Source of the DNA: Agromyces sp. Leaf222 | Lineage (GTDB): Bacteria > Actinomycetota > Actinomycetes > Actinomycetales > Microbacteriaceae | NCBI RefSeq assembly: GCF_001421565.1 | Contig: NZ_LMKQ01000001.1 | Coordinates: 1,735,651 to 1,799,650 of the forward strand | Length of the DNA: 64,000 nt | Direction: 5' to 3' | Shown here: one piece after another, positions 1,126-63,964 of the stretch | Layout: the number at the start of each line of letters is the position of its first letter | How positions within the stretch are numbered: position 1 is the first letter of the stretch | Position numbers and translations under genes: made by a program | The notes under the pieces: generated by a model | What the model was told of the DNA's origin: nothing | The model's input: the letters and a program-made list of their open reading frames with translations, nothing else | The model's database searches: none

Positions 1126-1751
1126 GCCTCGAGATCGTCCTCGCGACCCACAACGCGCACAAGGTCGGCGAGTTCCAGCGCATCATCGGCGAGCGGATGC
1201 CGCACGTCGCCGTCGTCTCCTACGACGGACCCGAGCCGATCGAAGACGGCGTGACGTTCGCCGAGAACGCGCTCCTCAAGGCGCGTGCGGCGGCGGCGCA
1301 CACCGGACGCATCTCGCTCGCCGATGACTCCGGCATCGTCGTCGACGTGCTGGGCGAGGCCCCCGGCATCCTCTCGGCACGGTGGGCCGGTCACCGGGCC
1401 GGCGACGAGGCGAACCGCCGCCTGCTGCTCGACCAGCTCTCCGATCTCGCGCGCCCGAACCGCGGTGCGGAGTTCCGGTGCACCATCGCGCTGGTCGTGC
1501 CCGACGGGCTGATCCCCGGCGGCACGGAGTTCGTGGCCGAGGGTCGCTGGCGCGGCACGGTCGCATACGAGCCGCGCGGGTCGCACGGCTTCGGCTACGA
1601 CCCGATCTTCGAGCCCGACGGCCACGAGATCACGGCGGCCGAGCTGACGCCCGACGAGAAGAACGCCAAGAGCCACCGGGCGCTCGCGTTCGTCGAGCTG
1701 CTGCCGGAGCTCGAGCGCGTCGCCGGGCTGGTGGGCGAGCCCGAGGCCTGA
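1122..1751 (+). CDS. rdgB: Non-canonical purine NTP pyrophosphatase, RdgB/HAM1 family
   Basis: This 209-residue house-cleaning enzyme hydrolyses XTP, ITP and dITP to monophosphates, keeping deaminated purines out of DNA and RNA. Visible family motifs are [11 protein letters not shown] near the N-terminus (the TNNxxK-type substrate loop), [18 protein letters not shown], and [11 protein letters not shown] followed by [16 protein letters not shown] near the C-terminus. The frame stays open far upstream inside rph, but the GTG at 1122, coupled to the rph stop, gives exactly the family length and N-terminal motif spacing. It is the third gene of the murI-rph-rdgB unit. Confidence 0.95.
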
Positions 1752-1796
1752 GAACGCGACTCATTCCCATCACGGGCGGGGCCGGCAAACGCCGCA

Positions 1797-1802
1797 TACG
1801 CT
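1797..1802 (+). promoter_or_regulatory. Candidate leaderless -10 box (TACGCT) for the cation efflux gene
   Basis: TACGCT ends seven bases before the ATG at 1810, the same geometry as at several other genes here. It favours ATG 1810 over GTG 1807. No convincing ribosome binding site precedes either codon. Confidence 0.45.
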
Positions 1803-1809
1803 TGACGTG

Positions 1810-2745
1810 ATGGCGCACTCACACGATCACTCGCACGGCCACGCCCATGGCGCGGCGAATCGCACCCGGCTCTGGATCGCGATCGCCATCATCGGCGTGT
1901 TCCTCGTGGTGCAGGTCGTCGGCTCGGCGCTCACCGGGTCGCTCGCGCTGCTGGCCGACGCCGGCCACATGTCGAGCGACCTCATCGGCCTCGTCGTGGC
2001 ACTCATCGCGGCGACCGTCGCGGCACGTCCGGCGACCGACCGCCAGACCTACGGGTACCGACGCGCAGAGGTGCTCGGAGCGCTCGTGAACGGCGTGATC
2101 CTCGTGGTCGTCGCCGTGACCGTCGCGATCGGCGCGATCTCCCGACTCGTCTCGGGCGCGGCCGGCGAGGCCCACGAGGTCGCCGGCGGCGGCATGCTCA
2201 TCGTCGGCGCCGCGGGTCTCGTCGCGAACATCGCCGCGATGCTCGTGCTGCGGGGCGGCGCGAAGGACTCGATCAACCTGCGCGGCGCGTACCTCGAGGT
2301 GCTCGGCGACATGATCGGCTCGGTGCTCGTCATGATCGCGGCCCTCGTGATCGTGCTCACCGGGTTCGACGCCGCCGACCCGATCGCCTCGATCGGCATC
2401 GCGGTGCTCATCGTGCCGCGCGCGATCTCGCTGCTGCGCGACGTCGTGCACGTGCTGTTCGAGTCGGCCCCGGTCGACACGGATGTCGCGGAGATCCGTG
2501 AGCACCTGCTCGGCACGCCGGGCGTGGTCGCCGTGCACGACGTGCACGTCTGGCAGATCACCTCGGGTCAGCCCGTGTTCTCGGCCCACGTCGAGGTCGA
2601 GCCCGAGGTGTTCGCATCGGGTCGCACGGGCGAACTCCTCGACGAGCTCGGCGGATGCCTCGCCGCGCACTTCGACGTCGAGCACTCCACGTTCCAGCTC
2701 GAGCCCGCCGGCCGTGCCGACCAGGAGCAGGGCACGCACCGCTGA
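1810..2745 (+). CDS. Cation diffusion facilitator (Zn/Co/Cd efflux)
   Basis: This is an inner-membrane metal:proton antiporter of the CDF (CzcD/ZitB) family, about 311 residues. The N-terminus is a histidine-rich metal sensor or shuttle stretch (HSHDHSHGHAHG). It is followed by about six transmembrane helices and a C-terminal cytoplasmic domain with HDVHVWQITSG and a late HSTFQLE motif. The intramembrane metal site HxxxD is seen in LLADAGHMSSDLIGL, and the matching Asp in YLEVLGDMIGSVLV. The start at ATG 1810 is chosen from the upstream TACGCT box; GTG 1807 is the alternative. It stands alone between rdgB and the convergent dedA gene. The transported metal cannot be told from sequence. Confidence 0.93.
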   Translation: MAHSHDHSHGHAHGAANRTRLWIAIAIIGVFLVVQVVGSALTGSLALLADAGHMSSDLIGLVVALIAATVAARPATDRQTYGYRRAEVLGALVNGVILVVVAVTVAIGAISRLVSGAAGEAHEVAGGGMLIVGAAGLVANIAAMLVLRGGAKDSINLRGAYLEVLGDMIGSVLVMIAALVIVLTGFDAADPIASIGIAVLIVPRAISLLRDVVHVLFESAPVDTDVAEIREHLLGTPGVVAVHDVHVWQITSGQPVFSAHVEVEPEVFASGRTGELLDELGGCLAAHFDVEHSTFQLEPAGRADQEQGTHR

Positions 2746-2863
2746 GCGGCGGCATCCGCCGGACGGGGGTTTGCGCCGTGCGCCGCATCGACCTGCTCAC
2801 CGGCGACCTCGCCGCACCGCGACATCCGTCATCGGAGCGTGCAGGCGAGCCGCTCGAGTCGGG

Positions 2864-3763: not shown

Positions 3764-3805
3764 GGCGCCGCGGCATCCGACCTCGAGGGCGGATGCCGCG
3801 GCGCC
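3764..3805 (-). terminator. Perfect 16-bp stem-loop downstream of heme oxygenase
   Basis: The arms 3764-3779 and 3790-3805 are perfect reverse complements with a 10-base loop. Each arm contains the recurring word GCGGCATCC or GGATGCCGC. It lies 22 bases beyond the hmuO stop, so a terminator role is likely. No T-tract is present, which is usual in high-GC actinobacteria. Confidence 0.6.
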
Positions 3806-4573: not shown

Positions 4574-5434
4574 ATGCGATACGGGTTCATCTACACGGGC
4601 GACGATCCCGAACTGGCGGTCGAGCTCGCCTCCCTCGCCGAAGCCCACGGTTGGCACGGGTTCTTCGTCTGGGAGGGCATCTGGGCCACCGACCCCTGGG
4701 CGACCCTCGCCGCGGCCGCCGTGAAGACCGAGACCATCCGGCTCGGAACCATGCTGACGCCCGTGCCGAGACGCCGCCCGTGGGAGCTGGCCGGGCAGAC
4801 GATGACCGTCGACCGGCTCTCGAAGGGACGGGTGATCCTCTCGGCCGGCCTCGGCGTGCCCGAATCGGTCGAGCCGCGCTTCTGGCTCTTCGAGTCCGAC
4901 CCGGGCCGGCGCGAGCGGGCCGAGATCCTCGACGAGTCGCTCGAGCTGCTCGAGCAGCTCTGGCGCGGCGAACCGTTCGAGCACGAGGGGCGGCACTACC
5001 GCGCGACGCGCACCGAGAGCATGCTGCCGCCCGCCGCCGTGCAGCAGCCGCGCATCCCGATCTGGGTCGTCGGCGTCTGGCCTGCGCCAAGGTCGATGAG
5101 GCGCGTCGCCCGCTACGACGGCTGGTTGCCGAACTTCGCTCCGCCCGGTGCCGAGCTCGCGCCGGGCTCGCCCGGATTCACTCCCGAGGTGGCCGCCGAG
5201 GCGGTCGCGTGGATCCGTGCCGAGCGCGAGCGCCTCGGTCTCGCCGACCGGCCGTTCGACGTCGTGCAGGAAGGCTCGACCCCCGGCGTCGATGCCGAGG
5301 CGGATGCCGCGGTCGTGCGTCCGTGGGCCGAGGCCGGCGCGACGTGGTGGCTCGAGGCCGACTGGAACGTGCCGTCCGACGGCATCGAGGCGTACGCCAG
5401 GGCGCGACTCGCGGCCGGGCCGCCTCGGGCCTGA
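4574..5434 (+). CDS. LLM-class flavin-dependent oxidoreductase
   Basis: This 286-residue member of the luciferase-like monooxygenase superfamily has a TIM-barrel fold binding FMN or F420. Features are MRYGFIYTGDDPELAVELASLAEAHGWHGFFVWE at the N-terminus, TIRLGTMLTPVPRRRPWELAGQTMTVDRLSKGRVILSAGLG-type barrel strands, and PRIPIWVVGVWPAPRSMRRVARYDGWLPNF in the second half. The enzyme family oxidises or reduces small organics with a deazaflavin or flavin. The substrate cannot be named. It is monocistronic and faces away from hmuO, with their promoters in the same ~90-bp gap; shared iron control is possible but not shown. Confidence 0.88.
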   Translation: MRYGFIYTGDDPELAVELASLAEAHGWHGFFVWEGIWATDPWATLAAAAVKTETIRLGTMLTPVPRRRPWELAGQTMTVDRLSKGRVILSAGLGVPESVEPRFWLFESDPGRRERAEILDESLELLEQLWRGEPFEHEGRHYRATRTESMLPPAAVQQPRIPIWVVGVWPAPRSMRRVARYDGWLPNFAPPGAELAPGSPGFTPEVAAEAVAWIRAERERLGLADRPFDVVQEGSTPGVDAEADAAVVRPWAEAGATWWLEADWNVPSDGIEAYARARLAAGPPRA

Positions 5435-7447: not shown

Positions 7448-7503
7448 ACGCGGCATCCGCTCGGCTTCGAGTCGAGGTGAATCGAAGCATGCGGATGCCG
7501 CGT
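7448..7503 (-). terminator. Stem-loop downstream of the PadR/membrane protein operon
   Basis: Arms 7448-7460 and 7491-7503 (ACGCGGCATCCGC and its reverse complement) pair over 13 bp. A second inner pair (GCTTCGA/TCGAAGC) extends the hairpin. Both outer arms contain the recurring GCGGCATCC word. It follows the stop of the gene at 7534, read leftwards. Confidence 0.55.
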
Positions 7504-7533: not shown

Positions 7534-8505
7534 CTACTCGGCCTTCTCCGCCTTGGCGCCGAAGAGCATGCGCGCGAGCACGAGCATCATGGCCACGAAG
7601 CCGCCGATGAAGGCGAGCGGCGCCCAGATCCACCCTGCGGTGAAGCCGATGATCGGGATCGCGACGAACGCGATGGTCCAGATGACGGCGGTGTAGATGC
7701 CGAAGCGGGCGCCGGCCGCGGGGTCCTCTTCGAAGCGGGTGCCGATGTTCGCCGCCTCGCGGTGCTGCTGCACGACCCACGGCTTGTGGCGGTTGGTCTG
7801 CGTCGCGCCGAGGTAGCTCAGGGCGCCGATCGCGCCGATGACGGCGGCGCCGGCGAGCACGAGCCAGGCGAGGTCGAGGTGCACGATGACCACGGGCGTG
7901 AAGGCGAGACCCGCGAGCAGCAGGCCGGTGGCCGCGCCGTAGCCGATCGCGCGCCCGGCGGGCATGCGGTGGTTCGTGGTGGTCTCTTGACTCAGGGCGT
8001 CGGCCGTGACCGCGCCGAGCGCGAGGCCGAACACGACGGCGAGCCCGACGAGGGCGCCCTCCCCGAGGGCGAGCAGCGGCGTGAGTCCGAGCACGAGCAG
8101 CACCAGTGCGGCGGCGCCGACGATCGAGAGCACGACGGTGCGCACGACGAAGCCCGGCTTGGGGCGCACGCGGTTGCGCAGCGCTGCGGCGGTCGCCGAC
8201 TCGGCGCGGGCCGCGGACGTGTGGCCGCCGACGCGGGTCGCGGGCGCGGTGGGCCCGCCCGCGGCATCCGCCGTGCCATCGTTCTCGACGTCGATGAGCT
8301 CGCGCACGTCGCCGAGTTCGGCGATCGCCTTGCGCGCGGCATCCGCCTGGGAGAGTCCGGATGCCTCGAGCTCGCCCATGCGTGCGAGCAGGTTGCCGCG
8401 GATCTCCTCTTTCAGGTCTTGGATCTCGGGCGTGACCTCGATGCCGGCGAAGGCCTCGTCGAGCAGTCGGTGCAGGTCGCCGCCGGAGGAGCGGTGGTCG
8501 GTCAT
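7534..8505 (-). CDS. Membrane protein with N-terminal HAAS-like (permease prefix) domain
   Basis: This 323-residue protein has an N-terminal helical domain of about 75 residues (DHRSSGGDLHRLLDEAFAGIEVTPEIQDLKEEIRGNLLARMGELEASG) like the HAAS/DUF1700 signalling-associated domain commonly paired with PadR regulators. A variable linker follows, then about six to eight hydrophobic segments. The ATG at 8505 lies one base after the padR stop, so the two are co-transcribed and probably translationally coupled. In PadR-HAAS pairs the membrane protein is usually the regulated partner, often linked to envelope stress. The exact activity is not known. Confidence 0.8.
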   Translation of the reverse strand: MTDHRSSGGDLHRLLDEAFAGIEVTPEIQDLKEEIRGNLLARMGELEASGLSQADAARKAIAELGDVRELIDVENDGTADAAGGPTAPATRVGGHTSAARAESATAAALRNRVRPKPGFVVRTVVLSIVGAAALVLLVLGLTPLLALGEGALVGLAVVFGLALGAVTADALSQETTTNHRMPAGRAIGYGAATGLLLAGLAFTPVVIVHLDLAWLVLAGAAVIGAIGALSYLGATQTNRHKPWVVQQHREAANIGTRFEEDPAAGARFGIYTAVIWTIAFVAIPIIGFTAGWIWAPLAFIGGFVAMMLVLARMLFGAKAEKAE

Positions 8506-10095: not shown

Positions 10096-11115
10096 ATGAA
10101 GTCGGTCATGGTCACCGGGCCCGGAACCACCGAGATCGTGGAGGTCGAGCAGCCCGTCGCGGGTCCCCGCGACGTGCTCGTGCGCATCCGCGCCTGCGGC
10201 ATCTGCGGCAGCGACCACATGTACACGATGTACGGCGGCATCCCGCCGCGGCAGGGCGCGACCCCGCTCGGCCACGAGCCCGCCGGCGAGATCGTGTTCG
10301 TCGGCGACGAGGTGCAGGGCGCGCAGGTCGGCGACCACGTCGTCATCAACCCGATGGCCGCGAGCGACGGCATCATCGGCTCCGGCGGCGCGCAGGGCGC
10401 TTTCTCGCCGTTCGTCGTGCTGTTCGACGCCGTCGCCGGAACGCACTTCCGCGTGATCCCGAACGAGATCCCGTTCGAGGTCGCCGCGCTCAACGAGCCC
10501 ATGGCCGTCGCCCGCCACGCCGTCAACCGCTCCGGCGCGAAGGCCGGCGAGAAAGCTGTCGTCTTCGGCGCGGGCCCCATCGGCCTCGGCGCGCTGCTCA
10601 GCCTCAAGGCGAAGGGCGTCGACCACGTCGTCGTCATCGACATCCTGCCGACGCGCCTCGAGAAGGCCCTCGCGATCGGTGCGGATGCCGTCATCAACTC
10701 GGCTGAAGAGGACGTCAAGGCCCGCCTCATCGAGTTGCACGGCGAAGCCCCGCCCGTCGTCGGCATCCGCGATGCCCGCCCGGCGACCGACGTCTACCTC
10801 GATGCGGCCGGCGCCCCCGTCGTGCCGACCACGGTGTTCGGCCTGGTCAAGCAGGGCGCGCGCCTCGTGATTCCCGCGGTGCACAAGAAGCCCGTCGAGG
10901 TCGACTTCGGCGGCCTGCTCACGACCGAGATCTCGATCATCATGTCGATGGGCTACCCGACCGAGATCTTCGAGGTCACCGACGACCTCATCGCCAACTG
11001 GCAGAAGTACCAGCTCATCATCAGCGACCGGTTCACGATCGACGACGTACAACGCGCCCTCGAGGTCGCCGCGACGCCCGGCGCCGCCGACAAGGTCATG
11101 GTCACGCTCGACTGA
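10096..11115 (+). CDS. Zinc-dependent medium-chain alcohol/polyol dehydrogenase
   Basis: This 339-residue NAD(P)-dependent MDR-family dehydrogenase shows the catalytic zinc region CGICGSDHMYTMYGG and GHEPAGEIV (Cys, His-Glu ligand pair) and the Rossmann motif GAGPIGLGALLSLKAKG near residue 155. The four-cysteine structural-zinc loop of classic ADH is absent (the segment reads NPMAASDGIIGSGGAQGAF), as in sorbitol- or ketose-reductase-like branches. ATG 10096 is preferred over ATG 10087 because AAAGGA lies nine bases before it but touches the earlier codon. Control by the divergent LacI protein suggests a role in sugar or polyol catabolism. The substrate is unresolved. Confidence 0.88.
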   Translation: MKSVMVTGPGTTEIVEVEQPVAGPRDVLVRIRACGICGSDHMYTMYGGIPPRQGATPLGHEPAGEIVFVGDEVQGAQVGDHVVINPMAASDGIIGSGGAQGAFSPFVVLFDAVAGTHFRVIPNEIPFEVAALNEPMAVARHAVNRSGAKAGEKAVVFGAGPIGLGALLSLKAKGVDHVVVIDILPTRLEKALAIGADAVINSAEEDVKARLIELHGEAPPVVGIRDARPATDVYLDAAGAPVVPTTVFGLVKQGARLVIPAVHKKPVEVDFGGLLTTEISIIMSMGYPTEIFEVTDDLIANWQKYQLIISDRFTIDDVQRALEVAATPGAADKVMVTLD

Positions 11116-11137: not shown

Positions 11138-11302
11138 CCGGCACGCGCCACGACCTTTCGCCGGCGCGACGACGGTTCGAACGGGTCGTGACGGCGCACA
11201 GCGTCGTGGCGCAGCATCCGTCGCCCCTCTCGAGCGGATGCCGCGGCCGCCCGTGTGGATAACTTCGCGGTGCCCGGCGAGCCTCACCCCAAGATGGGTG
11301 AC

Positions 11303-12625
11303 ATGACCGACCCCGTTCGCACGATCACCGAGCGCGTGCGAACCCGCGTGCTGCACGAGGGGGTCGATCTCGGGCGCGACACCGATGCGGCGGCGCGCTT
11401 CACGCGAGAAGAGGTGCGGCGCTACAGCGAACGCGCGCTCGGCGGCGCGCACGCCGAACTGCTCGACGAGCTCGCGACCGTGCGCGAGGTCGAGGCGGCG
11501 ATCACGGGCTACGGGCCGCTGCAGCCGTACTTCGACGACCCCGACGTCGAGGAGATCTGGATCAACGGTCCGACGCGCGTGTTCGTCGCCCGCAACGGCG
11601 TCGCCGAGCTCACCACGGTCGTGCTGAACGACCGAGAGGTGCGCGAACTCGTCGAGCGCATGCTGCAGCACAGCGGCCGCCGGGTCGACCTCAGCTCGCC
11701 GTTCGTCGACGCGTCGCTGCCCGACGGGTCGCGGCTTCACGTGGCGATCCCCGACGTCTCGCGCACGCACTGGGCCGTGAACATCCGCAAGTTCCAGCGG
11801 CGCATCCGCACGCTCGAGGTGCTCGTCGAACTCGGCTCGCTCACGGCCGAGGCCGCCGGATTCCTCCGTGCGAGTGTCGTCGCGGGCGCGAACATCCTCG
11901 TCTCGGGGGCGACCCACACCGGCAAGACCACCCTGTTGAACGCGCTCATGTCGTCGGCCAGGGTCGATGAGCGCGTGATCACCATTGAAGAGACGTTCGA
12001 ACTCGACCTCGACGTGCGCGACCTCGTGTCGCTGCAGTGCCGCCAGCCGAGCCTCGAGGGCACCGGCGAGATCACGCTGAGGCGCCTCATCAAGGAATCC
12101 CTGCGCATGCGGCCCGACCGCCTCATCGTCGGCGAGGTGCGCGAGGCCGAGAGCCTCGACCTGCTCATCGCGCTGAACTCGGGCTTGCCCGGCATGTGCA
12201 CGATCCATGCCAACTCGGCGCGTGACGCGCTCACGAAGCTCTGCACGCTGCCGCTGCTCGCCGGGCGAAACATCGATGCGTCGTTCGTGGTGCCGACGGT
12301 CGCGACCTGCATCGACCTGGTGGTCCACCTCGGCATCGACGCCGCCGGGCGCCGCAGCATCGTCGAGATCTCGGCGCCCACCGGCGACTGCACCGATGGC
12401 AGCGTCGACGTCGACCCGATCTTCGCGACCGTCGGCGGCGAGCTTCGCGCCACCGGTCTGCGACCGCGTCGGCTCGAGAAGTACCGCGCCGCCGGACTCG
12501 TCGCCGACGCCGTGCAGAACGACCCCGCCGGGTCGGGAGAGCCTCCCGCTGCGCGCGAAGCCGAGGTGCCGCGCGAGGGCGCTGCGCCGACGGAGCACTC
12601 CGAGCCGAACGGGCAGGCCGCATGA
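11303..12625 (+). CDS. tadA: Tad pilus assembly ATPase, TadA/CpaF family
   Basis: This ~440-residue secretion ATPase drives assembly of the Flp/Tad pilus from the cytoplasmic face. Family features in order are GYGPLQPYFDDPDVEEIWINGPTRVFV (N-terminal domain), the Walker A motif GATHTGKTTLLNAL (near residue 205), the Asp box around ITIEETFELDLD, RLIVGEVREAESLDLLIALNSGLPGMCTIHANSARDAL (Walker B and His box). ATG 11303 is chosen; ATG 11294 and GTG 11255 are in-frame alternatives. It heads a seven-gene operon coupled by stop/start overlaps. The usual upstream tadZ is missing. Confidence 0.93.
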   Translation: MTDPVRTITERVRTRVLHEGVDLGRDTDAAARFTREEVRRYSERALGGAHAELLDELATVREVEAAITGYGPLQPYFDDPDVEEIWINGPTRVFVARNGVAELTTVVLNDREVRELVERMLQHSGRRVDLSSPFVDASLPDGSRLHVAIPDVSRTHWAVNIRKFQRRIRTLEVLVELGSLTAEAAGFLRASVVAGANILVSGATHTGKTTLLNALMSSARVDERVITIEETFELDLDVRDLVSLQCRQPSLEGTGEITLRRLIKESLRMRPDRLIVGEVREAESLDLLIALNSGLPGMCTIHANSARDALTKLCTLPLLAGRNIDASFVVPTVATCIDLVVHLGIDAAGRRSIVEISAPTGDCTDGSVDVDPIFATVGGELRATGLRPRRLEKYRAAGLVADAVQNDPAGSGEPPAAREAEVPREGAAPTEHSEPNGQAA

Positions 12626-13491
12626 GTCTCGCGCTCGGAGCGCTGCTGGGCGTCGGCGTGCTGCTCGCGCTCGCGCCGCTGCTGTGGCCCGCGAAGCCCG
12701 ACATGGTCCGCGCCTCCTCGCCGTCCGCGCTCCGCCGCCGCATCCACGACGATCTCGCGCTCGCCGGGCTCGGTCAGGTGCCGATCCCGGTCATCGCCGT
12801 CGTCTCGATCGTGTTCGCGAGCGTGCTCGGTGCCGTGGTGCAGGCCGTCATGCAGGTGCCCACCATCACCGTGGTCGCGGCGCTCCTCGGCGCAGCGGCG
12901 GTGCCCCTGATCATCGGTTCCCGTGCCGACCGGCGCCGTGCCGCGAACCGGGCGGTCTGGCCCGATGTGGTCGATCACCTCGTCGCATCCGTGCGGTCGG
13001 GTGTGCCGCTCCCCGAGAGCGTCGGCGCGCTCGGCGTACTCGGCCCGGCGCAGACCCGTTCAGCTTTCGCCGCCTTCGAGGTCGAGTACCGCCGCACGGG
13101 CAACTTCTCGCTCTGCGTCGACCGGCTGAAGGAGGTGCTCGCCGACCCGATCGCTGACCGCATCCTCGAGACGCTGCGCATGGCTCGCGAGGTCGGCGGC
13201 ACCGAGTTGACGGCGGTGCTGCGCGGACTCTCCGGGTACCTGCGCGAAGACGCCGCCCTCCGCGCCGAGGTCGTCGCGCGCCAGTCCTGGATCCGCAACG
13301 CAGCGCGACTCGGGGTCGCGGCGCCGTGGCTCCTCCTCGTCGTGCTCTCATCACGCCACGAGACGCTCGTCGCCTACGACTCGCCTGCGGGCGCCGTGCT
13401 CATCGTGGTTGGCGTCATCGTGACCGTGATCGCCTATCAGTCGATGAACGCGCTCGGCCGACTTCCCGAGGAGCGAAGATGGTTCCGCTGA
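12622..13491 (+). CDS. tadB: Tad pilus inner-membrane protein TadB (T2SS F domain)
   Basis: This 289-residue polytopic membrane protein has a GspF/TadB domain. An N-terminal helix (LALGALLGVGVLLALAPLLW) is followed by two central helices (residues ~50-95), a cytoplasmic F domain (VWPDVVDHLVASVRSGVPLPESVGALGVLGP, matching the TadB pattern LPDALDLLARALRAGHSLPEAL) and a C-terminal pair of helices. The start ATG overlaps the tadA stop (ATGA, 12622-12625). It is thought to form the membrane platform with TadC that couples ATPase movement to pilin extrusion. Confidence 0.9.
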   Translation: MSLALGALLGVGVLLALAPLLWPAKPDMVRASSPSALRRRIHDDLALAGLGQVPIPVIAVVSIVFASVLGAVVQAVMQVPTITVVAALLGAAAVPLIIGSRADRRRAANRAVWPDVVDHLVASVRSGVPLPESVGALGVLGPAQTRSAFAAFEVEYRRTGNFSLCVDRLKEVLADPIADRILETLRMAREVGGTELTAVLRGLSGYLREDAALRAEVVARQSWIRNAARLGVAAPWLLLVVLSSRHETLVAYDSPAGAVLIVVGVIVTVIAYQSMNALGRLPEERRWFR

Positions 13492-14426
13492 ACGCGACCG
13501 TTCCCCTCGCGCTGCTCTGCGGGGTGCTGATCGGGCTGGGCGCCTGGATCGCACTCAACGCAGTTCCGCGCATCGGGCGACCGAGGCTCGCCGAGCGCGT
13601 CGCGCCGTACGTCGCCGACTTCTCGGTCGAGGCGAGGGCGATGCTCGCACGGCGCTCGTCGGATCCCTCGCCCGTGTTCGGTGCCGTCCTCGGGCCGGCG
13701 CTGCGTCGGCTCCGCGCCATCGCGACCTCCTGGCTCGGCGGACCCGAGACCGTCGCGCGTCGGCTTCGGCAGGCCGGCTCTTCGGCGACCGTCGAACGAT
13801 TCCGCGGGGAGCAGTTGGCCTGGGGTGCGACGGCGTTCGCGGCCGCTGCCGCGCTCGCGCTGTTCGCGCCGGGCTTCGCGACGCTTCCGGCTCCGGTGCG
13901 GCTCGCGTCGCCAGTGCTTGCGGCCGCGCTCGGGGTGCTCGCCCGCGACTGGATGCTGCAGCGCAGCGCTGCGCGCCGCCTCACCCGCATCTCCGAAGAG
14001 CTTCCGACCGTGCTCGAGTTCCTGACGTTGAGCCTCACCGCGGGTGAGGGCATGCTCGACGCGCTTCGCCGCGTCGCGCGCATCGGCTCGGGCGAACTGC
14101 CGCAGGAGTTCAGGGTCGTCGTCGCCGCGGTCGGCACCGGGGTGCCGCTCGCCGATGCGATCACGGCCCTCCGCGATGGACTCGACCACCCGGCGCTGTC
14201 CCGAGCGCTCGACCAGGTGCTCGGCGCGCTCGACCGTGGTGCTCCGCTCGCGTCCGTGCTCGCCTCGCAGGCCGGTGACGCCCGCGACCAGGCCAAGCGC
14301 ACGATCATCGAGCTCGCCGGGCGCAAGGAGATCGCGATGCTCGTGCCGCTCGTGTTCCTCATCCTGCCGGTGACGATCGCGTTCGCGCTCCTGCCCGGCT
14401 ACCTCGTGCTCCAGACGGGATTCTGA
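13479..14426 (+). CDS. tadC: Tad pilus inner-membrane protein TadC (T2SS F domain)
   Basis: This 315-residue GspF-type platform protein is paralogous to TadB. It has an N-terminal helix, two central helices (GEQLAWGATAFAAAAALALF and SPVLAAALGVLARDWML), the F-domain stretch EELPTVLEFLTLSLTAGEGMLDALRRVARIG, and a C-terminal LVPLVFLILPVTIAFALLPGYLVL helix. ATG 13479 is preceded by GAGGAG and overlaps the end of tadB by 13 bases; the frame is open further upstream but that part is tadB shadow. The platform is complete with TadB, so the ATPase-platform core is intact. Confidence 0.9.
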   Translation: MVPLNATVPLALLCGVLIGLGAWIALNAVPRIGRPRLAERVAPYVADFSVEARAMLARRSSDPSPVFGAVLGPALRRLRAIATSWLGGPETVARRLRQAGSSATVERFRGEQLAWGATAFAAAAALALFAPGFATLPAPVRLASPVLAAALGVLARDWMLQRSAARRLTRISEELPTVLEFLTLSLTAGEGMLDALRRVARIGSGELPQEFRVVVAAVGTGVPLADAITALRDGLDHPALSRALDQVLGALDRGAPLASVLASQAGDARDQAKRTIIELAGRKEIAMLVPLVFLILPVTIAFALLPGYLVLQTGF

Positions 14427-14486: not shown

Positions 14487-14687
14487 ATGCAGCAGCACTT
14501 CGACCGACTGCAGCGCCGCGTCCTGCGGCGTCTGGCCACCGCGATGTCGAACGATCGGGGCGACGTTCCGGGCTGGGTGCTCATCACGCTCATGACGGCC
14601 GGGCTCGTGATCGTGATCTGGGGGCTCGCCGGCCCGGCGCTCTCCGAGGTGTTCGAGCAGGCGATCGACCGCGTCACGGGATTCTGA
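14487..14687 (+). CDS. Small Tad-locus pilin-like peptide (Flp/DUF4244 position)
   Basis: This 66-residue protein has a basic cytoplasmic N-terminus of about 20 residues, a short NDRGDVPGWVLITLMTAGLV segment and a single hydrophobic helix. It sits exactly where the Flp/DUF4244 pilin lies in actinobacterial tad loci, and AAGGAAG precedes its ATG. A type IVb prepilin usually has Gly at the cleavage site and Glu five residues into the mature part. Here a Gly is present (RGDVPGW) but the Glu+5 is not, so processing may be unusual. The call as major pilin rests mostly on gene position. Confidence 0.7.
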   Translation: MQQHFDRLQRRVLRRLATAMSNDRGDVPGWVLITLMTAGLVIVIWGLAGPALSEVFEQAIDRVTGF

Positions 14688-44479: not shown

Positions 44480-44578
44480 ACGCCGATCCTGCCACGACCC
44501 TCCGTCGACGACCACGGCGGAACGGCGATCGGGAACAGCGGATGCCGCCGACGGATGCCTCGCCACGCCGTTCGTCGC

Positions 44579-50000: not shown

Positions 50001-50435
50001 TCAGGCCGCGCGCGCCTCGAACTCGTGCTCGGCGTAGATCGGCGTCTCGTGGATCGTCTCGACCGCGGCATCCGTCGACTCGTCGACCGGCTCGGCCCAC
50101 ACCACGAGGGGAGCGGGCTCCCAGCTGAGTGCGAGCGGCTCGGCCTCGGCGGGCACCACGACGGCGACGGCATCGCGCTCGTCGAGCACCGCACGCGTCA
50201 GCTCCGCCGAGATCTGGTGGGTGATGACCGCATCGAAGATGCGGTCGGTGTCGCCCTCGGCGCGGCGCACGAGCGACCACGCGCCGTTCGGGCCGATGAA
50301 CTCCGAGAGCTTCGCATTCAGCAACTCGAAGAGGTGCTCGCCGCGCAGGTCTGCCGCGGTGGGGCGCGGCGGCTTGGCGGCGGCGTGTGCGGAGGCCTGT
50401 GCGGCAAGCCTCGCTCTGCGCCAACGGCGGAACAT
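50001..50435 (-). CDS. Hypothetical protein
   Basis: This 144-residue protein starts with a basic stretch (MFRRWRRARLAAQASAHAAAKPPRPTAADLRGEH) and then has a folded-looking region LFELLNAKLSEFIGPNGAWSLVRRAEGDTDRIFDAVITHQISAELTRAVLDERDAVAVVVP. Its tail is acidic and rich in Glu and Ala. ATG 50435 follows GAGAGGGG; an in-frame start further upstream (50492) is less likely. I do not recognise the family. It stands alone between bioY and a small membrane protein gene. Confidence 0.65.
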   Translation of the reverse strand: MFRRWRRARLAAQASAHAAAKPPRPTAADLRGEHLFELLNAKLSEFIGPNGAWSLVRRAEGDTDRIFDAVITHQISAELTRAVLDERDAVAVVVPAEAEPLALSWEPAPLVVWAEPVDESTDAAVETIHETPIYAEHEFEARAA

Positions 50436-50494: not shown

Positions 50495-50560
50495 AGTCTC
50501 AGCCCGAAAGGGGGTCGGATGCCGCAGAACACGCCGCAAGCGGCGGGTCGGACTGAGACT
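50495..50560. promoter_or_regulatory. Long-range inverted repeat between two small genes
   Basis: AGTCTCAG (50495-50502) and CTGAGACT (50553-50560) pair perfectly around 50 bases that contain a smaller GCCGC/GCGGC hairpin. It spans the gap between the small membrane protein gene end and the hypothetical protein gene start. It could be a terminator or an RNA structure. Confidence 0.4.
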
Positions 50561-50856: not shown

Positions 50857-53118
50857 ATGAACGCCGTTCACCCGGATTCCGAAGACCTGTACGTCGACCA
50901 CGCCTACGACATGATCGTGGTGTCGAACCGACTCCCCGTGGACTACGAGGAGCAGCCGGACGGCAGCATCGGGTGGAAGAGCTCGCCCGGCGGTCTCGTC
51001 ACCGCGCTCGAACCCGTGATGCGGGCCGCCGACGGCGCCTGGATCGGCTGGGCAGGCGTCGCCGACCGCGAGTTCGACCCGTTCGAGCACGACGGCATCT
51101 CGATCATCCCCGTGCCGCTCAGCGAGTCGGAGCTCGAGGAGTACTACGAGGGGTTCTCCAACGACACCCTCTGGCCGCTCTACCACGACGTCATCGCGCC
51201 GCCGTCGTTCCACCGCGAGTGGTGGGAGGCCTACGTTCGCGTCAACCGGCGCTTCGCCGAGGCCGCCGCCCGCGCGGCATCCGACGGCGCCGTCGTCTGG
51301 GTGCAGGACTACCAGCTGCAGCTCGTGCCCCGCATGCTGCGGGAGTCGCGGCCCGACCTCGTGATCGGCTTCTTCAACCACATCCCGTTCCCCGCGTACG
51401 GCATCTACTCTCAGCTGCCGTGGCGACGGCAGGTCATCGACGGGCTGCTCGGCGCCGACGTCATCGGCTTCCAGCGCGTGGCCGACGCCGGCAACTTCTC
51501 GCGCGCCGTGCGGCGCCTCTACGGCTATCGCACGCATGGCACCGTCATCGACGTGCCGATCACCGACACCACCACGCCCGACGCCGACGTGCGTCGCGTC
51601 GTCGCGAGGGCGTTCCCGATCTCGATCGACGCCGCCGGCTTCGAGGAGATGGCCAGGCGGCCGGAGGTGCAGGCCCGAGCGGCCGAGATCCGCGAGAGCC
51701 TCGGCAACCCCGAGACGATCATCCTCGGCGTCGACCGGCTCGACTACACCAAGGGCATCCGGCATCGCATGAAGGCCTTCGGCGAGCTGCTCCGCGACGG
51801 CCGGCTGAACGTCGAGGACGTCACGCTCGTGCAGGTCGCGAGCCCGTCGCGCGAGCGCGTCGAGACCTATCGCCAGCTGCGCGACGAGATCGAGCTGACG
51901 GTCGGGCGCCTGAACGGCGACTACGCGACCCTCGGCCACCAGGCCATCGCCTACCTGCACCACGGTTACCCCCGCGACGAGATGGTCGCCCTCTACCTCG
52001 CGGCCGACGTGATGCTCGTCACCGCGCTCCGCGACGGCATGAACCTCGTCGCCAAGGAGTACGTCGCGTGCCGGTTCGACGGCGACGGCGTGCTCGTGCT
52101 GAGCGAGTTCGCCGGGGCATCCGACGAACTGCGCCAGGCCGTGCTCGTGAACCCGCACGACATCGAGGGCCTGAAGGACGCGATCGTCGAGGCGGTGCGG
52201 ATGCCGCGGCGCGAGCGCACCCGTCGCATGCGCGCCCTGCGGCGTCGCGTGATCGAGAACGACGTGGCGAAGTGGTCGGCCAGCTTCCTCGAGACGCTGA
52301 CGGGCGCTGGCATCATCAAGCCCGGCATCACCGAGCCGCTCGAGCGTGCGATCGAGGAGCTGGCATCGACCGAGCGGCTGCTGGTCGCCCTCGACTTCGA
52401 CGGCACCCTCGCGCCGCTCGTCGACCGGCCGGACGACGCGAGGGCGACCGAGCGCGCGAGGGCCGCGATGGCGCGCCTCGTCGCCTCGCCCGACACGCGC
52501 GTCGCCCTCGTCTCGGGCCGAGCGCTCGAGAGCCTCGGACATGTCGCCGAACCCGGTGACGGCGTGCTGCTGAGCGGGTCCCACGGTGTCGAGCTGAAGC
52601 TCGACACCGGGGCGATCACGCTCGACCTGCGCGATGCCGAGCTGCTGAAGCTCGAGCAGCTGGGCCGCATCATCGACGAGGTGGCCGCCGGAGTCGACGG
52701 GGCGCGCGTCGAGCGCAAGCCCGCCGGACTCGCGCTGCACACACGAGGACTCACGTCGAGCGCGGCCACCGCCGCGCAGCTCGCCGCACGCGAGCGCGTG
52801 GCCGCCGAGCTCGCCGGCGTGACGGTGCGCACGGGCAAGTCGGTCATCGAGTTCGCGGTGCGGTCGACCGACAAGGGCGAGTCCTTCGTCAGGCTCCGCC
52901 AGCACGCACGGGCGACCGCCGCCCTCTACGTGGGCGACGACGTGACCGACGAAGACGCGTTCGCCTCGCTCGACGACGGCGACATCGGGGTCAAGGTGGG
53001 CCAGGGCAAGTCCATCGCGCCCTACCGGGTGCGCAACCCCGACGACGTCGCCGAGCTGCTCGAGCGCCTCGCGACGGCGCGTGAAGCGGCGGCCGAGGGG
53101 GCCTCCCGCTGGCAATAG
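50857..53118 (+). CDS. otsA: Bifunctional trehalose-6-phosphate synthase/phosphatase (OtsA-OtsB fusion)
   Basis: This 753-residue fusion has OtsA in residues ~12-490 ([94 protein letters not shown]). OtsB occupies residues ~500-750 (the HAD motif [11 protein letters not shown], then [18 protein letters not shown] and [12 protein letters not shown]). It makes trehalose from UDP-glucose and glucose-6-phosphate via trehalose-6-phosphate in one polypeptide. GAGGAGGG precedes ATG 50857. The stop codon TAG is part of the TAGACT box used by ilvD. Both catalytic halves look intact. Confidence 0.95.
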
Positions 53119-57182: not shown

Positions 57183-58373
<1,191 letters not shown>

Positions 58374-58423: not shown

Positions 58424-58559
58424 TCGGCGTCTCCCGGTGATGCACGACGCCCGCCCGCGGCATCCGCTCGACCGCTCGTGAAGTCGGCGGCCGGCACTCT
58501 GGACGCGGTCCCGGCCCGGTGGTAGACAGATGCCGCATATCCGCACCAAGGGGGTCGTC

Positions 58560-59966: not shown

Positions 59967-60793
59967 GCCTGCAGGCGAGCCGGTCGTCAGAGGTCCGCCG
60001 CACCGCAGCGGCGGCGGCCAGGCGACGCGGCCGCGGACGCCCGCGGGTGGGCGATGCCCTTCCCGTGCTCGCCGGTGCGGCGTGGGCGGTGCTGCTGCTC
60101 GGCGCACTGCCGATCCAGGGGTCGTTCGGACCGGGTATCGGCCTGCATGGGGGCGGAGCGCACGGGACCGGCGACCCGCTCGGCTCGACCGTGGGCGCGG
60201 TGACGGATGTCGCGGCATCCGTGGTCGTCACGCCCACGTGGATCGCGGGCTGGCTGCTCATGGTCGTCGCGATGATGTGGCCGCTGCTCGTGCCGCTCGC
60301 GAACCGCATCGCCTCGGGGTCGTACCCGCGCTGGCGCATCGGGCTGCCGATCGTCGCGGTCGCCGTCGCGACGCTGCTCTGGCTCGCGTTCGGGCTCGTC
60401 GCGGGCGTGTTCGCCCAGCTCGCGTCGATCCCGGCCGGCAGCCTCTGGTGGCAGCTCGCGGCGCTCGCCGTGGCGGGCCTCGCACGGTGGTCGGCCCGGC
60501 GCGCCCGGTTGCTGACGCGCTGCGCCGTGACGCCGCCGATCGCGCCGGGCGGCCGCCGCGGCATCCGCACCGCTGCTCGTGCCGGCGCCGTGGAGTGGCG
60601 TCGCTGCGCGATCCTCTGCGGACCGCTCATGCTGGCGATGGTGCCGGGCCACAGCATCGTCGTGCTCGCCGCCGCGAGCCTGTCGGTGTGGTGGGAGGCG
60701 CGGCATCCGCGTGCCTGGCGCGACCCGGTGCCGCTCGCGCTCATCGTCGTCGCCGGCATCGGCGCCGTCGGCTCGGCCCTGCTGGGCGGGTGA
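59963..60793 (+). CDS. DUF2182-like integral membrane protein
   Basis: This 276-residue protein has an N-terminal basic region and about seven hydrophobic segments. WIAGWLLMVVAMMWPLLVPLANRI and RRCAILCGPLMLAMVPGHSIVVLAAASLSVWWEARHPRAWRD match the two conserved blocks of DUF2182 (predicted metal-binding integral membrane protein); Met, Cys and His residues in these helices could bind Cu+. It starts inside the tyrosinase stop (ATGA, 59963-59966) and is four bases from the protease gene, so all three are coupled. A role in supplying copper to the tyrosinase is inferred. Confidence 0.65.
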   Translation: MSLQASRSSEVRRTAAAAARRRGRGRPRVGDALPVLAGAAWAVLLLGALPIQGSFGPGIGLHGGGAHGTGDPLGSTVGAVTDVAASVVVTPTWIAGWLLMVVAMMWPLLVPLANRIASGSYPRWRIGLPIVAVAVATLLWLAFGLVAGVFAQLASIPAGSLWWQLAALAVAGLARWSARRARLLTRCAVTPPIAPGGRRGIRTAARAGAVEWRRCAILCGPLMLAMVPGHSIVVLAAASLSVWWEARHPRAWRDPVPLALIVVAGIGAVGSALLGG

Positions 60794-60797: not shown

Positions 60798-62606
60798 GTG
60801 GTTCGCAGGGGGCCGGTCGCGACGGTGTCGCTGCTCATCCAGGACGACTCCGTCGACCTCGGCGCGATCGACGGCGCGAAGGTGCCGCTCCGCGAGAACC
60901 GCGAGCTCGCGATGCCCGACGACGCGAACGACCGCTTCCTCGACGGCCCGGCCTGTCGCAGGCTCGCGGTGGTCGACTTCGATCCCGAGACCGGGATGCC
61001 GCTGCCGCCGCCCGCGCGGTTCGAGCCGAATCGCGACGGCGGGCTCGACGGCACGTACCCGATCGACGACGCGCCCGACTCGCCCGCAGCGCTCGCCGTG
61101 AACGCGTTCGGCATCGCGTTCCGCACGATCCGCATGTTCGAGGGGCCCGATGCGCTCGGTCGCCGGGTCACGTGGGCGTTCGGCGGCGAGCAGCTGCTCG
61201 TCGTGCCGCGCGCCGGGGAGCGGGCGAACGCCGCCTACGACCGGAAGACCCGGAGCCTCGCCTTCTCGTCGTTCACCGGCACGAACGGCGAACGCGTGCA
61301 CACGGCGCTCAGCCGCGACATCGTCGCCCACGAGTGCGGGCATGCGCTGCTCGACGCCGTGCAGCCGTCGCTCTCGGACCGGCCGACGCGCGAGTCGATC
61401 GCGATCCACGAAGCGGTCGCCGACGTGATCGCCGTGCTCATGGCCCTCGACAGCGACCGACTTCGCTCGAGCGTGCTCGCGCGGAGCGGCAACCGCATCG
61501 ACGAGCACAACGCCTTCAGCTCCATCGCCGAGCAGTTCGGCGTCTCGAAGCCCGGTCCGGGCGGCATGGCGCGGCATGCGCTGCGCGAGCTCGCGAACGA
61601 CGAGACGCTCGCAGCGCTCGCCGGAGCCGGTTCGCACGAGCTCAGCACCCTGCTCTCGGCGATCTACTACGACACGCTGCGCGAGATCTTCGAGGGCCGG
61701 TTCGCGCAGGAACGGCGCGTGCGCCATGACGGCGGCCGCCGGCAGACCCCGGCGCAGGCGGCGAACCGCGCGCTCGGCACCGCGCACCTGATCTTCCGCA
61801 GGTTCGTGCTGCGCGGCATCGACTACCTGCCGCCGGGCGACCTGGGGTTCGCGGACATCGGCAGGGCCGCCTTCGCCGCCGATCGCGCGATCGACGGGGC
61901 GACCGGTCGGCGGCCGAGCGCCGAGGTGCGCCGACGGCGCGACGCGTTCGCCACTCGGTTCGTCACGCGCGGCATCGTCGCGGCCGAGGCGCAGTTGCAC
62001 GGGCGGCGACCATCGGCCCTCGACGTGCCGCCCGCGCAGCTGGAGGCGCTCCGCGACCTCGACTACGCCGCCTACGAGTACGTCGCGGCCCACCGCCGGG
62101 CGATCGGCATCCCGGCGGGCGTGCCGTTCACGGTGCTCCCGCGCATCGACGCGACGAAACGGGTCGGACCGGCCCAGGTGCCGCCCCAGCGCGAGCTGCT
62201 CGTGAAGGTGGCATGGGACCGACTGCCGGAGGCCCGCGGCGACGGCACCCGCGGTCGCCCGGTGCCGGTCGGGGCGACGGTGAGTCTGCGCTGGGAGGAC
62301 GGACGGTGCCTCGCCCTCGTGCGGAGCCTCGCGGCCGAGCGCAGCGGTTCGGCTCCTGGTTCGGCTCGCGGCAGTGCGGTGCCGCAGCCGGCCGAGGTGC
62401 TGGTCGCGGCCCTCGGAGCGGATGCCGCGACGACCGACGTGCACGGCGCCCCGCCCGCCGGGGCGGCCGCGCCCGCCCGCTCGGTTCGCTCACCGTCCTC
62501 GGCCGGTGCCGGCGCCGCCCGCCCGCTCGCCCCGCCGCCGCCGGGGGTGGATCCGGGTGCGTTCTTCGACCTCGTGCGCGCCCGCGGGGCCCTCGGCCGC
62601 GCATGA
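60798..62606 (+). CDS. Gluzincin-type (M4-like) neutral metallopeptidase
   Basis: This ~602-residue zinc peptidase has HECGH (residues ~178-182) and, about 23 residues later, HEAVADV whose Glu is the likely third ligand. This is the gluzincin pattern HExxH...E of thermolysin-like enzymes. The N-terminal region is divergent and no signal peptide is seen. GTG 60798 lies four bases after the DUF2182-like stop. The C-terminal ~90 residues are low complexity. As the third gene of the tyrosinase operon it is a candidate processing protease for the tyrosinase C-terminal domain, which is a hypothesis. Confidence 0.75.
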   Translation: MVRRGPVATVSLLIQDDSVDLGAIDGAKVPLRENRELAMPDDANDRFLDGPACRRLAVVDFDPETGMPLPPPARFEPNRDGGLDGTYPIDDAPDSPAALAVNAFGIAFRTIRMFEGPDALGRRVTWAFGGEQLLVVPRAGERANAAYDRKTRSLAFSSFTGTNGERVHTALSRDIVAHECGHALLDAVQPSLSDRPTRESIAIHEAVADVIAVLMALDSDRLRSSVLARSGNRIDEHNAFSSIAEQFGVSKPGPGGMARHALRELANDETLAALAGAGSHELSTLLSAIYYDTLREIFEGRFAQERRVRHDGGRRQTPAQAANRALGTAHLIFRRFVLRGIDYLPPGDLGFADIGRAAFAADRAIDGATGRRPSAEVRRRRDAFATRFVTRGIVAAEAQLHGRRPSALDVPPAQLEALRDLDYAAYEYVAAHRRAIGIPAGVPFTVLPRIDATKRVGPAQVPPQRELLVKVAWDRLPEARGDGTRGRPVPVGATVSLRWEDGRCLALVRSLAAERSGSAPGSARGSAVPQPAEVLVAALGADAATTDVHGAPPAGAAAPARSVRSPSSAGAGAARPLAPPPPGVDPGAFFDLVRARGALGRA

Positions 62607-62639
62607 CCGGATGACCGCCCACCCGTCCGCTACGGTGTC

Positions 62640-63389
62640 ATGGTGCCGAATCAGCTGCAGGTCGAGATCGCCGTCCAGGATGTCGCGGGGGTCCGCATCG
62701 CCCTCGAGCAGGGGGCCGCGCGCGTCGAGCTCTGCCAGGCGCTCGGGCTCGGCGGCCTCACGCCGTCGGCCGGGCTGATCGAGGCGGCTGTCGCGGCCGC
62801 CGCCGATGCATCGACGCCGGGGTTCGTGCACGTGCTCGTTCGGCCCCGCGGCGGGGGATTCGTCTACGACGCCGACGAACTCGACACCATCGCGCGCGAC
62901 ATCCGCCTGGCCGGCGGCCTCGGCGCCGACGGCGTGGTCGTCGGTGCATTGACCGAGACGGGAGCGCTCGACGAGCGAGCGATCGCCGCGTTCGTCGCCG
63001 CGGCCGACGGCATCGACGTGACCGTGCACCGAGCGGTCGATGCGAGTGCCGACCCCGTGGCCTCGGTGCTGGCGCTCCCCGGGCTCGGGGTGCGCCGCGT
63101 GCTCACCTCCGGCGGCGGCGTCGACTGCCGTGCCGGCCTTCCCGCGCTCGAGCGCATGGTCGCCGAGGTCGGCGGGCGTCTCGAGGTCATGTCCGGCGGC
63201 GGGGTTCGCGTGCCCGACATCGGCGACCTCGCCGCGGCAGGCGTCGACGCGGTGCACCTCTCGGCGAGGGGCCGAGACGAGCGCGGCGGTGCGAGCGGCC
63301 CCGGCGGCGGCGTCGACGGATTCGACGTGACCGATGTCGTGCTCGTGCGCGCCGCGGTGGCGGCCGCGCGAACGGTCCGCGCCGACTGA
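62640..63389 (+). CDS. cutC: CutC family protein (copper homeostasis)
   Basis: This ~249-residue TIM-barrel protein has the CutC pattern QLQVEIAVQDVAGVRIALEQGAARVELCQALGLGGLTPSAGLIEAAV and, later, LTSGGGVDCRAGLPALERMV. CutC was linked to copper handling in E. coli and eukaryotes, but the direct copper role is debated. A TACGGT box lies six bases before GTG 62643, which might be the true start (ATG 62640 is three bases from it). It lies next to the tyrosinase operon, which may be a copper-related neighbourhood. Confidence 0.9.
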   Translation: MVPNQLQVEIAVQDVAGVRIALEQGAARVELCQALGLGGLTPSAGLIEAAVAAAADASTPGFVHVLVRPRGGGFVYDADELDTIARDIRLAGGLGADGVVVGALTETGALDERAIAAFVAAADGIDVTVHRAVDASADPVASVLALPGLGVRRVLTSGGGVDCRAGLPALERMVAEVGGRLEVMSGGGVRVPDIGDLAAAGVDAVHLSARGRDERGGASGPGGGVDGFDVTDVVLVRAAVAAARTVRAD

Positions 63390-63405
63390 AGCACCGGCGC
63401 GTCGG

Positions 63406-63411
63406 TAGGCT
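63406..63411 (+). promoter_or_regulatory. Leaderless -10 box (TAGGCT) for the next gene
   Basis: TAGGCT ends seven bases before the ATG at 63419, as in ilvD and the phosphatase gene. Confidence 0.5.
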
Positions 63412-63418
63412 TGACGGC

Positions 63419-63964
63419 ATGACGCGCGAGACCGAGGACGACGCCCTGCGCTGGGAGGGCGACGACGATCCGACGCTCGCTCCCGGCTGGAAGACGGTCG
63501 GTCCGCCTGTCGCGGCGACCGCCGGCGGAGCCGGTTCCGCCGCGGCATCCGACGCCCCTGGCGAAACCGCTGCCACCGCGGCAACGGCTGCCACGGCCGC
63601 CGAGGTCGGCGCCGCCGACACCGCCGCCGACACCGACGTGGACGCCGACGAAGCCGATGACGACCGGGCCGCCCCGGCACCGCAGACCGGCTCGGTCGAG
63701 CTCGTGGTGCTCGGCATCCTCGCGGGCGTCTACCTGCTCTACACGATCGGTTGGCTCATCACCGCGCTGCGCACCTCGGCGCCGGGCGTGAGCATCGTGA
63801 GCGATGCGATGTACGCGCTGGGTCTCTGGCTCGCCGTGCTCGCGGCGCCGTGCTGGTTCGCGCTCGCGCTCCGCGCGGGCGGGCGCCGTGCCCGACTGGC
63901 CTGGCTGATCGTCGGTGTCGTCGTGCTCGCGCCGCTGCCGTTCGTCCTGGGGGTCACCGCATGA
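63419..63964 (+). CDS. Hypothetical membrane protein
   Basis: This 181-residue protein has a ~90-residue low-complexity, Ala/Asp/Thr-rich, acidic N-terminal half, then three hydrophobic segments (VELVVLGILAGVYLLYTIGWLITAL, VSDAMYALGLWLAVLAAPCWFALAL, LAWLIVGVVVLAPLPFVLGV). The family is not recognised. The start is supported by a TAGGCT box seven bases upstream and the stop overlaps the next gene (ATGA, 63961-63964). Confidence 0.7.
   Translation: MTRETEDDALRWEGDDDPTLAPGWKTVGPPVAATAGGAGSAAASDAPGETAATAATAATAAEVGAADTAADTDVDADEADDDRAAPAPQTGSVELVVLGILAGVYLLYTIGWLITALRTSAPGVSIVSDAMYALGLWLAVLAAPCWFALALRAGGRRARLAWLIVGVVVLAPLPFVLGVTA

Follow-up and report, generated by a model that had tools for sequence, protein, structure and literature searches.

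An over-represented short word of Agromyces as a candidate DNA uptake signal of Microbacteriaceae

The DNA considered here is a 64,000-nucleotide stretch of the genome of Agromyces sp. Leaf222 (contig NZ_LMKQ01000001.1, positions 1,735,651 to 1,799,650), referred to below as the window, and the element in question is the 9-mer GGATGCCGC, counted as exact matches to the word or its complement. The window carries 54 copies, 24 on the plus and 30 on the minus strand, compared with a mean of 2.91 and a maximum of 9 in 100 dinucleotide shuffles. Judged from sequence comparison, the full unit CGGATGCCGCGG, with its core GGATGnC, is probably a DNA uptake signal of Microbacteriaceae spread by molecular drive, and we put the probability of this reading at about 0.6. 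An uptake signal had already been proposed in an earlier note made from the letters of the stretch, and the dialects of the word, its turnover by point changes, its depletion in a relaxase-bearing region, its pairs at gene ends, its lack of strand skew and the association of its enrichment with a Tad ATPase fit that proposal.

The copies run through the window from 1195-1203 to 63542-63550, and the word was present in all sampled stretches of the chromosome (504 kb plus one 100-kb region were sampled, and word counts were made genome-wide). The whole genome (4.43 Mb in 4 contigs) contains 3,222 copies, 1,579 on the plus and 1,643 on the minus strand, compared with 136 (61 and 75) of the reversed word. 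This 24-fold ratio is generous because the reversed word contains TAG/CTA, which is probably depressed in genes, making it an imperfect, soft control. In a 464-kb sample of the same genome, on which the ranking of words is based, GGATGCCGC ranked first of all 9-mers when counts were set against an order-2 Markov model, with 335 copies compared with 17.5 expected.

Codon usage does not explain this abundance. When synonymous codons were shuffled within genes (60 shuffles, home-made gene calls; this null leaves codon-junction bias unkept), 35.3 coding copies were expected (standard deviation 4.3, maximum 45), whereas 263 were observed, a 7.5-fold excess. Under the same null the excess of the 12-mer CGGATGCCGCGG in genes was about 20-fold (102 compared with 5.2), and the genes of the window alone held 42 copies of the 9-mer where 6.2 were expected. 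Five reading frames carry nearly all coding copies: Asp-Ala-Ala (100 observed, 7.9 expected), Ala-Ala-Ser (91 and 1.8), Gly-Ile or Gly-Ile-Arg (40 and 21), Arg-His-Pro (18 and 1.5) and Met-Pro (13 and 3.1). Intergenic DNA held 69 copies in 59.4 kb, genes held the 263 copies in 404.6 kb, and 3 lay at edges.

Much of what the earlier note had said about the word agrees with these counts: roughly fifty copies compared with about two expected, near-equal numbers on the two strands, copies in non-coding gaps, and the forcing of rare codons, which largely holds (GAT makes up 14% of Asp codons, GCA 6% of Ala, TCC 21% of Ser and GGA 8% of Gly). The use of several frames was also seen, except that the Gly-Cys frame (GGA TGC C) named there is almost unused (1 of 263 copies, 0.05 expected). 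The note had suggested counting 9-mers against a Markov null of order 4-6 (under the order-2 model given above the word ranks first), and had held that its reading would fall if a codon-aware null reproduced the count or if enrichment were missing elsewhere; the null did not reproduce it, and enrichment extends through the genome and to relatives.

The anatomy of the word consists of a strict GGATG followed by C at position 8, and beyond about 1 base 5' and 2 bases 3' of the 9-mer the flanks hold little information. Over 504 kb there were 144 exact and 267 one-mismatch copies of CGGATGCCGCGG, the mismatches being spread unevenly: 0-5 variants at each of positions 2-6 (GGATG) and 8, 10 at position 10, 21 at position 1, and 35-102 at each of the tolerant positions 7 (mostly T), 9, 11 and 12. 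Random decay would be expected to distribute mismatches about equally, and the pattern suggests that the word is read with a strict core and a soft edge.

The intergenic excess of GGATGCCGC sits mainly at gene 3' ends and not at promoters, the word reaching 1.78 copies per kb in tandem and 1.66 in convergent gaps, against 0.67 in divergent gaps and 0.64 in genes. Inverted pairs at gene ends, pointed out before for this stretch, are real: in the window, intergenic copies at 3770..3778 (minus) and 3791..3799 (plus) form a hairpin, and a second intergenic pair lies at 7450..7458 (minus) and 7493..7501 (plus). Such pairs fold strongly (z from -5.5 to -8.0 in 4 of 5). Two copies at 24307..24315 (plus) and 24314..24322 (minus) overlap and together make the 18-bp palindrome CGGATGCCGCGGCATCCG; head-to-head overlaps of the form GGATGCCGCGGCATCC account for ten of 314 neighbouring gaps, and 42 of the 314 gaps are no longer than 100 bp.

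No strand skew was found, either over 23 stretches (chi-square 15.4 on 23 degrees of freedom) or in the 119 of 249 family genomes that have at least 300 copies (z with standard deviation 0.85 and maximum 1.95), the test having been made by stretch and on whole-genome totals. Relative to genes, 114 copies have the same and 149 the opposite orientation (p 0.036). The earlier view that balanced strands argue against Chi and KOPS (FtsK orienting polar sequences) is thereby borne out, and a KOPS role was rejected for want of any skew or oriented pattern in the 23 stretches.

Among 249 Microbacteriaceae genomes (at least 80% complete, drawn from a larger group) the ratio of the word to its reversed control is at least 5 in 109, at least 10 in 60, at least 20 in 17 and below 2 in 56, so that the comparison with relatives suggested in the earlier note extends the enrichment well beyond one genome. 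The closest named relatives are Agromyces, and all 19 named Agromyces counted were enriched (774-3,456 copies, controls 74-135). Enrichment can also fade within a genus: in g84 two genomes have 1,856 and 1,436 copies and a third 138. Outside the family, 229 genomes of the order mostly had CGGATGCCGC at about the level of its control; the highest count was 152, with 52 for the control, and one genome of small size had 59 compared with 6. The Leaf222 genome has 2,748. In these samples the word is essentially a trait of Microbacteriaceae, ranging from absent to more than 20-fold.

The outer bases of the word vary between lineages. By de novo counts, the leading 10-mers of the same-genus genomes G078 and G235 include CGGATGCCTC and CGGATGCCCC; in the Leaf222 genome these are minor but still abundant forms (393 and 191 copies, reversed controls 6 and 5). 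The ratio of CGGATGCCTC to GGATGCCGC (10-mer count divided by 9-mer count) was 0.40-1.28 in 8 of 24 Agromyces and 0.04-0.38 in the other 16; whole-genome counts were used here, the 20-kb loci of 80 named relatives (75 of them with at least 10 kb) being individually too short for calling dialects. The eight genomes, G078, G235, agglutinans, mediolanus, soli, G190 (de novo words counted over only 20 kb), italicus and S2-1-8, cluster on a tree of two genes (RF2 and CpaF; 26 taxa, one gene missing in 6), with a node support of 0.61 uniting them and 1.00 joining them to the clade of Leaf222. One group of Agromyces has thus shifted towards CGGATGCCTC/CCC, as uptake sequences of Neisseriaceae do. In other genera CGGCATCC was the top or first-listed 8-mer in 6 of 7 genomes (the exception being G017), so the core is common to several genera and its edge varies; no clear dialect emerged from the de novo words of G160, G051 and G017.

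Orthologous sites were compared with G139, a close relative (about 118.6 kb aligned, about 87% identity). With one 17-kb overlap removed, 42 of 76 word sites were intact (55%). The intact share was lower among neighbours with one mismatch (65 of 164, 40%) and among 9-mers matched for GC content (30.5%); in A. allii (20 kb aligned) 9 of 18 sites were intact against a background of 38%. Among 90 aligned site rows, in which the overlap of L010 and L151 is counted twice, 50 were intact, 35 had substitutions and 5 had gaps. Copies of the word are thus gained and lost through point changes, and they are retained above similar words; as the changes are unpolarised, any one of them may be a gain in Leaf222 or a loss in the relative. 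In 16 single-mismatch rows with G139, a few of which are counted twice owing to the overlap of two stretches, the differences fell at positions 1, 2, 3, 4, 7, 8 and 9, and C was found opposite T4 in none of these and in none of 6 rows with A. allii. Differences at so many positions are evidence against a single mutational hotspot.

A 100-kb region of the Leaf222 genome (G000:C1:2360001-2460000; L167, L168, L013, L169 and L170) has 18 copies compared with 71 expected, a four-fold depletion (p 5e-14), and a low GC content of 0.65-0.67. It encodes a TrwC relaxase, a P-type ATPase, a CtaG/CopD-domain protein, a CoiA-like nuclease, a CHAT-domain protein and a YobI-like ATPase, and is probably an integrated conjugative or mobilisable element of recent arrival. 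The depletion in DNA that was probably acquired was seen in this one region. Atypical distributions of DNA uptake sequences (DUS) served to detect conjugative elements in Neisseriaceae (Hughes-Games et al., PMC7371117).

The window also encodes a Tad pilus, and the presence of its ATPase was compared with the enrichment of the word across the family. The CpaF protein of the window was used as the query, so that distance could bias the search, although the E-values were bimodal; 10 of the 249 genomes with intermediate E-values were dropped, and the statistics ignore phylogeny. Enrichment of at least 5-fold was found in 90 of 167 Tad-positive and 16 of 72 Tad-negative genomes (Fisher p 5e-6), and of at least 10-fold in 57 of 167 and 3 of 72 (p 1e-7). 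For genomes of at least 2 Mb (smaller ones were listed by hand), the genus medians were 7.6 in 48 Tad-positive and 2.3 in 20 Tad-negative genera (p 1.3e-4). The control ATPase PilB, whose presence was read by eye with the split gene of G204 counted as present, gave a weaker contrast (6.7 in 36 genera, 3.2 in 25, p 0.035).

The Leaf222 genome itself has a full-length PilB-type ATPase match in a 652-amino-acid open frame (G000:C1:3306163-3307320), which some members of the family have and G139 lacks: a type IVa-like pilus with a patchy occurrence among actinobacteria. Such a pilus was rejected as the uptake pilus: its association with enrichment is weak, and G139, G104 and G210 are strongly enriched while none of their T2SSE matches goes beyond an E-value of 5e-66, full-length PilB-type matches lying below about 1e-134.

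Several other explanations were weighed. That codon usage, dipeptide usage or a mutational bias produced the word as a side effect is scarcely credible and was rejected: the Gly-Ile-Arg frame alone is nearly natural here, whereas the Ala-Ala-Ser and Asp-Ala-Ala frames exceed the synonymous null many times over, intergenic density is higher than genic density, and none of the 229 genomes from elsewhere in the order exceeds 152 copies of CGGATGCCGC. An element of the REP (repetitive extragenic palindromic) type, or a terminator, spread by transposition would account for gene-end pairs that fold strongly, but is very improbable given that 263 of 335 copies are coding, that most are single, that almost no information extends beyond about 12 bp and that gaps account for only 5 of the 90 ortholog rows. 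A Chi-like recombination signal read by a helicase-nuclease in repair would find a parallel in Chi words, which vary from one species to another and have a link with recombination (PMC3630211). RecC was found in none of 60 family genomes sampled (an E. coli control was positive; AdnAB and AddAB were not searched for), which excludes classical RecBCD-type Chi, and with the absence of skew in the window, the 23 stretches and the relatives, Chi was rejected; enrichment, moreover, goes from none to more than 20-fold in one family and shifts within a genus. A Chi-like role is quite unlikely.

A binding site for a nucleoid, segregation or regulatory protein agrees with the balanced use of both strands and the presence of the word in every sampled stretch, and yet divergent gaps, where promoters lie, are no denser than genes, spacing is not even, no KOPS-type orientation is seen, and the word forms dialects by lineage and is nearly absent from related genera; we regard it as unlikely. 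The HIP1 word (highly iterated palindrome 1) of cyanobacteria is a very abundant short word of debated function that is found in genes. The Agromyces word resembles it in being short, very abundant and present in genes, and it might be maintained by a methyltransferase or a mismatch-repair enzyme that recognises it, favouring gains or repairing losses. Strong enrichment without strand skew, as with HIP1, would suit such a process, as would the depletion in genes of GGACGCCGC, one C-to-T step from the word, to 0.24 of expectation. This depletion, however, is expected from the synonymous trade-off between GAC and GAT, and GGAGGCCGC, the corresponding trade-off in the Ala-Ala-Ser frame, is also depleted (0.46). 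A C-to-T deamination hotspot, which GGACGCCGC had suggested, was rejected on the diverse ortholog differences and on the absence of C opposite T4; nor was a single precursor feeding the word found among these differences, as would be expected of, though it does not define, the hotspot version. Several positions show graded tolerance, and the word is 9-12 bp long and non-palindromic, unlike the 8-bp palindrome HIP1. Maintenance of this kind is therefore doubtful rather than negligible.

The word behaves like the labels of known uptake systems, DUS and the uptake signal sequences (USS) of Pasteurellaceae. Both Pasteurellaceae and Neisseriaceae are Gram-negative, and the word, the phylum, the cell envelope and the pilus type all differ from those of Neisseriaceae; enrichment of the Agromyces type also dwindles to none in many genera of Microbacteriaceae, and the AT-rich tracts that flank USS are missing from the Agromyces word. 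The string ATGCCG is common to the word and the meningococcal DUS, presumably by chance. DNA uptake that strongly favours particular sequences is known from these two families (PMC7811141). Neisseria has about 1,900 DUS in 2.2-2.3 Mb (PMC3630211), which is close to the density of the Agromyces word, at about 3,200 copies in 4.43 Mb. As in Neisseriaceae, there is about one copy per 1-1.4 kb on both strands, a conserved core with variable outer bases, dialects that track phylogeny, two variants within one genome, and inverted pairs at gene ends with overlapping dyads (PMC3630211), and the scarcity in a probable mobile element recalls the atypical distribution of DUS in conjugative elements (PMC7371117). 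The likeness to USS lies in evolution by point mutation and in lower frequency in new segments and coding DNA, and molecular drive is a sufficient model for USS (PMC7811141). Micrococcus luteus, an actinobacterium, is transformed in a manner dependent on Flp/Tad pili (PMC4322843), and Agromyces likewise has a Tad locus and ComEC; the term 'uptake sequence' appears in neither of two M. luteus papers (one of them PMC4322843), which sets that case apart from the word of Agromyces.

If CGGATGCCGCGG is an uptake signal, a DNA-binding protein of the uptake machine would bind it and favour fragments that carry it. This protein would most likely sit on or beside the Tad pilus, with import of the ComEC type, available in nearly all genomes, and the imported fragments would recombine with the chromosome. 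New copies arising by chance might then spread via molecular drive, checked by gene function, and a change in the taste of the receptor would shift the outer bases and so give rise to dialects. The signature of the word was read from the genomes directly, and from it we infer that uptake is biased, that a receptor exists and that molecular drive acts. The wider proposal, that Microbacteriaceae evolved an uptake signal for self-DNA that forms dialects and is read by a receptor of the Tad-pilus uptake machine, independently of Neisseriaceae and Pasteurellaceae and as the first of its kind in Gram-positives, has in our estimate an even chance of being correct; on that proposal, active, shifted and faded states of the signal may occur inside one family.

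Several observations weigh against an uptake signal or against its link with the Tad pilus. Spacing is near random (coefficient of variation of the gaps 1.05, or 0.95 after merging pairs), unlike the relatively even spacing of USS in Haemophilus (PMC7811141), although even spacing is described for H. influenzae and was not taken as defining for DUS. The longest word-free gap of the window (11245-17510, 6.3 kb; the chance of a single gap as long is about 0.006) spans the whole Tad locus. ComEC, found in 245 of 249 family genomes including that of Leaf222, does not discriminate enriched from unenriched genomes. The ratio is below 2 in 25 of 167 Tad-positive genomes, while the Tad-negative G148 (18.9), G081 (10.8) and G017 (31.7, on a very low control) reach at least 10-fold; all these ratios depend on the imperfect reversed-word control. 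The Tad link drawn in the earlier note is supported by the association across 239 genomes, uncorrected for phylogeny, and is weak or missing within eight mixed genera, in which Tad-negative members are modestly lower (10.8 compared with 13-15 in g81, 4.2 compared with 5.5-7.3 in g77) or, in g7 and g73, not lower; recent loss of Tad or missing contigs could be the cause of such mixtures. No transformation or uptake data were found for Agromyces. Among the open-licence PMC articles listed, titles and abstract openings yielded no report of the word or of actinobacterial uptake sequences; a Clavibacter review (PMC12089995) contains both 8-letter strings once.

The Tad pilus does share the window with the word, as had been noted. 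Its ATPase of the TadA/CpaF type (11255..12625, plus; PF00437, 3.6e-40) might be part of the uptake machine; the best NCBIfam match is the TadA family TIGR03819 at 264 bits, under the cut-off of 373. It is followed on the same strand by two membrane proteins with T2SSF domains (PF00482), named by position as TadB-like (12622..13491) and TadC-like (13479..14426), a small membrane protein of 66 amino acids with no family match that may occupy the position of a Flp pilin (14487..14687), a TadE-like minor pilin (14819..15157, PF07811), a secreted or membrane protein of 161 amino acids with no family match, putatively in the position of TadF (15132..15617), and a Tad/TadE-G-like protein (15614..16096, PF13400).

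One copy of GGATGCCGC (11236..11244, plus) lies immediately upstream of the Tad ATPase gene. The other copies outside the pairs and the palindrome are found on the plus strand at 1195..1203, 5302..5310, 17834..17842, 19211..19219, 23646..23654, 24379..24387, 28175..28183, 34291..34299, 37164..37172, 37200..37208, 39328..39336, 44540..44548, 45949..45957, 47413..47421, 48563..48571, 50517..50525, 52199..52207, 57188..57196, 60994..61002 and 62420..62428, and on the minus strand at 2749..2757, 8261..8269, 8336..8344, 10235..10243, 17511..17519, 19279..19287, 20570..20578, 20668..20676, 20695..20703, 21592..21600, 23993..24001, 31464..31472, 34027..34035, 34514..34522, 35849..35857, 38643..38651, 40014..40022, 40176..40184, 46482..46490, 50065..50073, 51274..51282, 57685..57693, 58457..58465, 60212..60220, 60558..60566, 60700..60708 and 63542..63550. 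The sequences that flank about 19130-23225 of the window lie about 50 bp apart in G078 and G235, which means that about 4 kb was inserted in the window or lost there.

Other repeated words were seen in some of the relatives. In G160 (L041-L045), weakly enriched in a genus that is otherwise enriched, the top 8-mer is the palindrome CGGATCCG (3.7-fold). G029 (L143-L145) has a second enriched word family, CTCCTCGACCA and GTCTCGAGAC, of which CTCCTCGACCA is 239-fold enriched and REP-like, and G017 (L149-L150) has longer dispersed repeats around CGGGCTGACCC and CCCGGAACGGG. In Agromyces sp. S2-1-8 (L059) a repeat of GAACCCGAAC units lies less than 10 kb from the Tad ATPase gene.

If the uptake reading is true, Microbacteriaceae would be the third family with uptake signals and the first Gram-positive case, and a third, distant case would show that such signals have evolved repeatedly. 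Molecular drive could then be studied over 84 sampled genera with graded enrichment, and the receptor of a Tad-type uptake machine would become searchable. A practical use is also possible, since adding the word to DNA might ease the transformation of recalcitrant actinobacteria. For the organisms themselves, the word would offer a handle on transformation-based gene exchange among soil actinobacteria.

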